Positions 59,183 to 60,687 of a stretch of DNA of 64,000 bases are shown here, piece by piece. Below the pieces are notes generated by a model. It made no database searches and was not told the origin of the DNA. It saw only the letters and a program-made list of their open reading frames with translations. The stretch's first letter is position 1. The number at the start of each line of letters is the position of its first letter. This DNA is from Enterococcus faecium. Its GTDB lineage: Bacteria; Bacillota; Bacilli; Lactobacillales; Enterococcaceae. The translations under genes were made by a program, and so were the position numbers. Location: the NCBI RefSeq assembly GCF_029023785.1, contig NZ_CP118955.1:1176501-1240500 (forward strand), in the 5' to 3' direction.

Positions 59183-59211
59183 TTGCCTAATCATTAGGAA
59201 AAGTCTATCAT
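59183..59211 (+). promoter_or_regulatory. Promoter of the M-box/ftsW-psr-pbp5 transcript
   Basis: TTGCCT (59183-59188), 17 bases, TATCAT (59206-59211). Start of RNA expected near 59218, just before the riboswitch. Confidence 0.6.
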
Positions 59212-59236
59212 GAACTCGTAAATAGAATATAGTAAT

Positions 59237-59404
59237 AACCTTGTTAGGTGAGGCTCCTATACAAACATAGGCTGTTGCCCAGAAACGTCGAAAGTCGCCA
59301 ATGGGTAAAACAGAAACTGTCGGATTAAGGCTTTTTCCAATAGCTAAGAATGTTTTCTTTACGTTGTATAGTGCTAAAACTCGGACGATGAGATGATGCT
59401 AGGT
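59237..59404 (+). promoter_or_regulatory. M-box (ykoK-type) Mg2+ riboswitch
   Basis: The conserved M-box core is seen: GTTAGGTGAGGCTCCTATA with ATAGGCTGTTGCCC, AGAAACGTCGAAAG, GCCAATGGGTAAAACAGAAA, and far downstream GTATAGTGCTAAAACTC with CGATGAGATGA. AACCT (about 59236-59241) and AGGT (59401-59404) close the base stem. M-boxes sense Mg2+ and normally shut down Mg2+ transporter genes. Here the next gene is ftsW. Confidence 0.88.
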
Positions 59405-59442
59405 CAGAATTCTTGTTCGAAAAGGTTTCTGACCTTTTCTTT
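59401..59442 (+). terminator. Riboswitch expression-platform terminator
   Basis: AGGTCAGAA/TTCTGACCT stem followed by TTTTCTTT. It shares AGGT with the closing stem of the riboswitch, so the two can exclude each other. Confidence 0.8.
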
Positions 59443-59480
59443 ATATTTTTGTGACTGACTTATTTGATGAGACAAACTCG

Positions 59481-59515
59481 CTCCTCACCTGACAAGTGGA
59501 TTGCTGTGTGAGGAG
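59481..59515 (+). promoter_or_regulatory. Hairpin covering the ftsW ribosome binding site
   Basis: CTCCTCAC (59481-59488) pairs with GTGAGGAG (59508-59515), taking in most of the AGGAGG before GTG 59524. Translation would need this hairpin to open. Confidence 0.55.
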
Positions 59516-59523
59516 GAGATGCG

Positions 59524-60687
59524 GTGAAAAAAAGAAAAAAGATCGATTGGTGGATTTTGGGTCCTTATTTGACTTTGTCCATGATCGGTCTTTTAGAAGT
59601 ATACAGTGCCAGTTCTTATCGTTTATTGCAAGCCGATGAAAATACAAAAAGTCTATTATTGCGTCAACTAATTTTCATATTTTTGAGTTGGAGCGTGATC
59701 TTCTTAGCTCGTTCAGTCAAACTACACTATTTACTTCACCCTAAAATAGCAGGATACGGTTTAGCCTTATCGATTTTCTTTTTAGTATTAGTAAGAATAG
59801 GGATATTCGGTGTCACTGTCAACGGCGCACAACGTTGGATCTCTCTGTTTGGCATTCAATTCCAGCCTTCTGAACTGGCAAATCTTTTTTTGATTTTTTA
59901 TTTAAGCTGGTTTTTTCGTGACGGAAATAGTAGCCCAAAAGATCTAAAAAAACCATTCCTGATTACAGTAGGTATAACTTTTCTGATTTTATTTCAGCCA
60001 AAGATTGCTGGAGCATTGATGATCCTTTCGATTGCGTGGGTCATATTTTGGGCAGCGGCGGTTCCATTTAAAAAAGGGATCTATCTAATCGTTACTTTTT
60101 CTGCATTGCTGATTGGAGCAGCAGGCGGGGTATTATATTTAGGAAATAAAGGTTGGCTTCCACAGATGTTTAATCATGCTTATGAAAGGATCGCGACTTT
60201 AAGAGATTCTTTTATCGATAGTCATGGTGCGGGCTATCAAATGACCCATTCGTTTTATGCACTATATAATGGTGGCATATTTGGGCGGGGATTAGGAAAT
60301 AGTATCACAAAAAAAGGGTATCTTCCAGAGACAGAAACAGATTTTATTTTTTCGATTATTACAGAAGAGCTTGGGCTAATCGGTGCATTGTGTGTGCTTT
60401 TCTTATTGTTCTCATTATGCATGAGAATCTTTTGTTTAAGCAGTCGCTGTAAAAATCAGCAAGCTGGATTGTTTCTTTTAGGATTCGGAACTTTGCTATT
60501 CGTTCAGACGATAATGAACGTGGGAAGTATCGCGGGGCTGATGCCAATGACTGGTGTGCCATTGCCATTTGTTAGCTACGGAGGAACAAGTTATCTGATC
60601 CTTTCTTTAGGAATCGGAATCACGTTGAATATTTCTTCAAAGATACAGGCCGAAGAGTTGCCGCTCTATCGACCTGAAAAACAATAA
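59524..60687 (+). CDS. ftsW: FtsW/RodA/SpoVE-family cell-wall polymerase
   Basis: A 387-residue SEDS protein with ten membrane helices. ITVNGAQRWISLFGIQFQPSELANLFLIFYLSWFF, LFQPKIAGALMILSIAW, SFYALYNGGIFGRGLGNSITKKGYLPETETDFIFSIITEELGLIGAL and GLMPMTGVPLPFVSYGGTS are the family blocks. SEDS proteins polymerise glycan strands from lipid II. First gene of ftsW-psr-pbp5. GTG start behind AGGAGGAG. One typical catalytic block (DQP) reads FQPKIAG, with Gln-Pro kept but Asp replaced by Phe. Confidence 0.9.
   Translation: MKKRKKIDWWILGPYLTLSMIGLLEVYSASSYRLLQADENTKSLLLRQLIFIFLSWSVIFLARSVKLHYLLHPKIAGYGLALSIFFLVLVRIGIFGVTVNGAQRWISLFGIQFQPSELANLFLIFYLSWFFRDGNSSPKDLKKPFLITVGITFLILFQPKIAGALMILSIAWVIFWAAAVPFKKGIYLIVTFSALLIGAAGGVLYLGNKGWLPQMFNHAYERIATLRDSFIDSHGAGYQMTHSFYALYNGGIFGRGLGNSITKKGYLPETETDFIFSIITEELGLIGALCVLFLLFSLCMRIFCLSSRCKNQQAGLFLLGFGTLLFVQTIMNVGSIAGLMPMTGVPLPFVSYGGTSYLILSLGIGITLNISSKIQAEELPLYRPEKQ

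Follow-up and report, generated by a model that had tools for sequence, protein, structure and literature searches.

An M-box riboswitch heads the ftsW-psr-pbp5 operon of Enterococcus faecium and accessory wall-synthesis genes in Enterococcaceae

We identified a full-length M-box Mg2+ riboswitch aptamer (RF00380, ykoK/mgtE leader) directly upstream of the ftsW-psr-pbp5 operon in a 64,000-nucleotide (nt) stretch of the Enterococcus faecium genome (NZ_CP118955.1, positions 1,176,501 to 1,240,500), hereafter called the window, in whose own numbering positions are given. M-boxes usually precede the Mg2+ transporter genes mgtA or mgtE, whereas the window copy heads genes for wall synthesis. As judged from sequence comparison, the tie between the M-box and this operon is close to certain, and we consider it highly probable that the element controls entry into ftsW, psr and pbp5 as a transcription-attenuating switch. 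The kind of riboswitch is already known; the new part is its target class and how far that class has spread through the family. An earlier note on this DNA had known of no report of such a link, and likewise no paper linking an M-box to pbp5 or ftsW was found in the literature searched, the scope of which excluded most subscription journals.

The aptamer was recognized in an Infernal search of the whole window against the Rfam model, as suggested in the earlier note. The match (145 bits, E-value 7.6e-33) was far over the curated gathering cut-off of 44 bits and covered model positions 1-169, i.e., all 169, corresponding to a full-length aptamer. The M-box that the earlier note had placed at 59237-59442 was genuine, and the span it gave comprises the aptamer together with the terminator described below. 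Only one other M-box was detected in this genome (G000:C1:589650-589824, 157 bits). It belongs to the same class and has the classic transporter target, an mgtA-type Mg2+ ATPase. When 23 chosen leaders, including this mgtA M-box, were aligned, 91 of 220 alignment columns were invariant and formed a core common to the window and transporter-linked M-boxes. The window copy shares with its class the full-length aptamer, the terminator and the competing 3' strand of the base stem, P1. The next gene is ftsW, as the earlier note had also proposed: its GTG start at 59524 is 82 bases past 59442, and no forward-strand open reading frame (ORF) of at least 60 amino acids (aa) was found in between, with one 68-aa ORF on the reverse strand (59441-59647).

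We further checked the occurrence of this arrangement in 15 genomes of the genus, all of which contained both pbp5 and an M-box before mgtA. M-box-ftsW-psr-pbp5 was present in six of them (G000, G002, G004, G005, G009 and G013), and M-box-psr-pbp5 without ftsW in three (G006, G007 and G011); an M-box was present at 9/9 psr-pbp5 loci of the genus. At the other six pbp5 loci, the ~4.5 kb upstream contained no M-box and no match to psr (one of these loci, L211, was partly masked). Alignment of the nine pbp5-operon leaders, a comparison across relatives that the earlier note had called for, showed that 150 of 167 aptamer positions (90%) and 38 of 40 terminator positions (95%) were invariant. Corresponding values for the flanks were 18/93 (19%) further upstream, 11/29 (38%) in the promoter stretch, 9/21 (43%) just before the aptamer and 10/70 (14%) in the spacer. 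The far greater invariance of the aptamer and terminator is as expected from selection on the switch. Translational control via a hidden ribosome site was set aside because the spacer (59441-59510) was the stretch with only 14% of invariant positions.

Additional parts of a riboswitch platform were predicted around the aptamer (Table 1). Downstream of it is an intrinsic terminator, whose hairpin (59401-59435) has a predicted energy of -15.8 kcal/mol; none of 200 shuffles was as stable as the fold of 59402-59452 (z -5.2). The P1 3' strand may alternatively pair with a strand within this hairpin that resembles the 5' strand of P1, giving a predicted antiterminator of -11.9 kcal/mol. The competition of base stem and terminator suggested in the earlier note thus has comparative and predicted support: a terminator and a competing antiterminator were predicted in all nine pbp5-operon leaders (antiterminator energies of -11.9 to -12.4 kcal/mol, and -14.0 in leader L082), and the antiterminator 3' strand was unchanged in these nine and in L082. 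Two further leaders (L112 and L114) kept the pairing strand as UUGUUCG inside an otherwise different hairpin. The remaining leaders in a set of 27 SEDS or pbp5 leaders had strong terminators too, but the same antiterminator was not predicted in most of them. The layout of the window leader matches the OFF-type arrangement known for M-boxes. Upstream of the aptamer, a promoter-like element would place the transcription start near 59218. Taken alone, this element was not above chance (10 promoter-like matches in its region as a whole versus 8.7 in shuffles). However, the pattern TTGnnn-N17-TAnnnT, ending 8-30 nt ahead of the M-box, was present in 26 of the 27 leaders, including all nine from pbp5 operons, compared to an average of 0.67 and at most 4 of the 27 in 200 shuffles; as the pattern was picked after the leaders had been seen and the leaders are related, these values are support and not a probability.

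Table 1. Features of the ftsW-psr-pbp5 leader and operon in the window
Feature	Position	Strand	Basis
Promoter-like element TTGCCT-N17-TATCAT, predicted transcription start near 59218	59183..59211	+	9/12 matches
M-box Mg2+ riboswitch aptamer, RF00380	59233..59399	+	145 bits; 150/167 positions invariant in 9 pbp5-operon leaders
P1 base-stem 3' strand doubling as predicted antiterminator 5' strand, UCGGACGA	59381..59388	+	predicted fold
Intrinsic terminator, hairpin 59401-59435 and U-rich tail to ~59450	59401..59450	+	38/40 positions (59401-59440) invariant in 9 leaders
Predicted antiterminator 3' strand, UUGUUCGA, within terminator hairpin; look-alike of P1 5' strand	59413..59420	+	predicted fold
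ftsW, accessory SEDS glycosyltransferase, FtsW2 type, 387 aa, GTG start	59524..60687	+	PF01098; accessory clade in tree
psr (lcpA), LytR-CpsA-Psr (LCP) family glycopolymer transferase, 294 aa	60779..61663	+	PF03816
pbp5, low-affinity class B penicillin-binding protein, 678 aa	61788..63824	+	NF051842 PBP4_5_Efaec, 1089 bits vs cut-off 700

The first gene of the operon is not a housekeeping ftsW. In a phylogenetic tree of 72 SEDS proteins, for which the program warned of long branches, the window FtsW fell in a 29-row accessory clade (support 100/99), the genome's two housekeeping copies lay outside it, and the second SEDS protein of tandem operons formed a separate accessory clade of its own. 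The window FtsW scored 281.7 bits against the TIGR02614 FtsW equivalog, below its cut-off of 337.5. We equated it with FtsW2 of E. faecalis. E. faecalis FtsW2 is a glycosyltransferase in vitro and has low basal expression, and ftsW2 homologs without rodA2 were reported in E. faecium (PMC12724132). Both the window gene and the E. faecalis ftsW2-rodA2 pair (OG1RF_11070-11071) encode accessory SEDS glycosyltransferases; the low basal expression of the latter is raised through CroRS, and the words riboswitch and magnesium are absent from that paper (PMC12724132). Another related system is the Listeria monocytogenes operon lmo2689-lmo2686 (mgtA-ftsW2-rodA3), which joins an accessory SEDS pair with a Mg2+-type ATPase but has mgtA first and contains no psr or pbp5; its published control is by CesRK and beta-lactams (PMC6686043).

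Linkage of the M-box to ftsW2 was found in many genomes of the family. Among 105 Enterococcaceae genomes, 44 orthologs of the window ftsW were detected at E-values up to 1e-75, and a same-strand M-box was located within 250 nt upstream of 35 of them, within 400 nt of 37 and within 1.3 kb of 41. In one of the four more distant cases (>400 nt), G070 (L118), an LCP gene intervenes. M-box-ftsW2 was also present in the named carriers E. lactis, E. durans, E. pallens, E. alishanensis and E. gallinarum, and in three Enterococcus sp. (8/8 loci scanned, of 80 returned). At L074/L075 and at L136 (E. alishanensis), two divergent M-boxes are separated by ~600 nt; an LCP gene follows one of them and ftsW2 the other.

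The family contained 251 M-boxes in total, 39 of them in the genus. Downstream genes were classified for 99, i.e., all 39 of the genus and 60 of the 212 in the rest of the family, a set that leans to high scores and is not random. The first gene was SEDS in 30 cases, mgtA in 29, LCP in 17, MgtC in 8, a GNAT acetyltransferase in 5, mgtE in 3 and other (6) or none (1) in 7. Among these seven, L103 and L107 are SEDS-first by coordinates, and L088 represents mgtA behind a spurious reverse-strand ORF; in the same set of 99, L073 was masked and L069 was cut off by a contig end. Another 21 M-boxes, mostly from genera with a single M-box, preceded mgtA (15), mgtE (3), LCP (1) or other genes (2), and a transporter target was present in all 13 single-M-box genomes that were new in this set. 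Approximately 50 of the 120 classified family M-boxes (about two in five, not a random sample) headed SEDS or LCP wall genes, and these were concentrated in some genera. In 40 chosen M-boxes of other Lactobacillales families, the first gene was mgtA (28), mgtE (3), MgtC (2), GNAT (1), SEDS (1), LCP (1, with SEDS next) or other (4). Two of the four f7 loci (L239 and L240) had the order M-box-mgtA-SEDS, a layout as in Listeria lmo2689-lmo2686.

Several additional observations were made on M-boxes of these datasets. A GNAT acetyltransferase recurred between MgtC and mgtA in M-box operons (L079, 609-1758, and relatives), and tandem M-boxes ~160 nt apart were found ahead of mgtA in one locus (L231, G241:C16:177527-177699 and 177862-178040). 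Eight M-boxes (L064, L068, L221, L226, L253, L254, L288 and L290) were well over the cut-off and had a next gene that was neither Mg2+ transport, SEDS nor LCP, as judged with a small reference set.

These data suggest the following mechanism. Transcription would begin near 59218. With ample Mg2+ in the cytosol, the M-box would fold and P1 would close and hold its 3' strand, allowing the terminator to form, so that most transcripts would stop there. When Mg2+ is scarce, P1 would remain open and its 3' strand would base-pair with the terminator hairpin on its loop side; with the terminator blocked, the polymerase would read through into all three genes of the operon. The direct basis of this model is the aptamer together with the platform anatomy, its conservation and the gene linkage. 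The ligand and the direction of the response are taken from the known M-box family, and we also infer the start site, the physiological purpose and the extent to which PBP5 follows. In both E. hirae and E. faecium, ftsW-lcpA-pbp5 was reported to be transcribed as a single polycistronic mRNA (PMC5059904).

Several observations weigh against this model. On the structural side, the antiterminator fold of the window is by itself weak relative to shuffles (z -1.9, 8/200), the leader as a whole does not stand out when folded ligand-free (z -1.6, 16/200 shuffles), and its minimum-energy form then includes the terminator while lacking the long-range base stem. Three of the 44 FtsW2 orthologs (G003, G015 and G095, all complete) had no upstream M-box. 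In G015, which may be E. faecalis or a species close to it, the ftsW2-rodA2 pair ends 2.1 kb ahead of an M-box-mgtA unit and has no M-box of its own, and no remnant M-box was detected at E-values up to 0.5 before the G003 ftsW2 or before the six pbp5 loci lacking an M-box. On the expression side, a complementation construct took the 66 bp upstream of pbp5 as its promoter region (PMC11077988). When psr was carried with its own promoter, the phenotype was the same with or without ftsW, and from these plasmid tests ftsW was concluded not to affect the PBP5 level significantly (PMC11077988). A Listeria promoter fusion of lmo2689, ahead of mgtA-ftsW2-rodA3, was unchanged by MgSO4 or EDTA in brain heart infusion, the M-box content of the fusion being unstated (PMC6686043). 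For such operons, the published induction is by wall stress acting through CroRS or CesRK, and this control may dominate. No report of a Mg2+ response of this operon was met in those parts of the literature that were available.

Other published expression data also bear on the leader. PBP5 was higher in nusG and rpoB mutants (PMC13148053), and the leader terminator would be a natural site for NusG action; however, no rise of operon mRNA is reported for these mutants, which speaks against simple readthrough there. In addition, 13 riboswitches were predicted in E. faecium 5' untranslated regions (PMC7724050). The main text of that paper makes no mention of M-box, magnesium, ftsW or pbp5. The window M-box may already be among the riboswitches in its table, listed without comment.

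The strongest alternative, which we rate only slightly below an even chance, is that the switch is functional but its effect is confined to FtsW and, in part, Psr, with PBP5 made mainly from a promoter just before pbp5 and resistance hardly following Mg2+. This possibility is compatible with the switch mechanism and differs from it in consequence. The 66-bp region and the action of psr from its own promoter without ftsW (PMC11077988) favor it, whereas the polycistronic mRNA (PMC5059904), the M-box leading psr-pbp5 without ftsW in three genomes and its retention at all nine psr-pbp5 loci argue against it. The proposal of the earlier note that the M-box acts on the operon and makes the PBP5 level Mg2+-dependent fared differently in its two parts: a genuine M-box, a terminator-type platform and the comparative tie to the operon support the first, and the second is weakened by the published constructs (PMC11077988) and the Listeria fusion (PMC6686043). 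PBP5 probably follows Mg2+ only in part, because psr and pbp5 were given promoters of their own in published constructs, and that PBP5 and resistance follow it to a useful degree is possible but somewhat doubtful.

A different explanation assumes no leader at all. The operon would instead have an ordinary promoter (-35 TCGAAA, -10 TATATT) and a palindromic protein-binding DNA site with the motif GAAAAGGT-N5-ACCTTTTC, as published from a motif search in E. faecium, where operon mRNA was also changed in croS variants (PMC13148053). We consider this unlikely. The published promoter and palindrome coincide with the riboswitch terminator (59417-59447): the -35 (59417) and -10 (59442) elements fall within the terminator hairpin and its U tail, and the palindrome overlaps the terminator and antiterminator strands. 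TATATT at that spacing was present in one of the nine leaders, compared to nine of nine for the upstream promoter-like element. Both published elements can be re-read as terminator parts. It is still less probable that the M-box is a metal sensor whose ligand in the cell is a different divalent ion, such as Mn2+; M-box RNA folds with Mn2+ in vitro as well, which counts for this idea, and the presence of an M-box before mgtA in this genome counts against it. Finally, an orphan left behind by a lost transporter gene and taken over by the operon was offered as an alternative in the earlier note. Read as a functionless remnant of a Mg2+ transporter gene, it would fit the usual targets of M-boxes and the few M-boxes without a fitting gene (L064, L068, L221 and L226), but we rejected it as the least credible explanation because the aptamer and terminator are 90-95% invariant over nine species versus 14-43% around them, the M-box is kept at 9/9 psr-pbp5 loci even where ftsW is absent, and 41/44 family FtsW2 orthologs are M-box-linked.

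The leader is preceded by genes for a NanE-like epimerase and a flavin-reductase-like protein, and by a 68-aa ORF for which Pfam gave no match. Two other RNA families matched elsewhere in the window on the forward strand: the BsrC small RNA (RF01410, 14108-14196, 68.4 bits versus a cut-off of 38) and, just at its cut-off, the cspA thermoregulator (RF01766, 32841-33226, 78.1 versus 78).

With a transcription-attenuating M-box at its head, the best-known operon for intrinsic resistance in E. faecium would come under a named RNA sensor and one simple variable, Mg2+, which gives a concrete prediction about the media used for growth and for susceptibility testing. In some Enterococcaceae, the operon would be part of a Mg2+-starvation regulon that combines Mg2+ import (mgtA, mgtE) with a reserve set of proteins that build the wall and attach polymers to it (FtsW2, RodA2 and LCP), a set to which PBP5 was added in the E. 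faecium group. We tentatively suggest, as a view that may well prove wrong, that a Mg2+-starvation program swaps in this second wall set in many Enterococcaceae, that the E. faecium group has wired low-affinity PBP5 into it, and that cytosolic Mg2+ may thereby set part of intrinsic beta-lactam resistance, which would be partly a by-product of a metal-starvation response. A connection between Mg2+ and wall synthesis is an old observation in Gram-positive bacteria, and the wall genes behind Enterococcaceae M-boxes would provide a testable genetic link for it.
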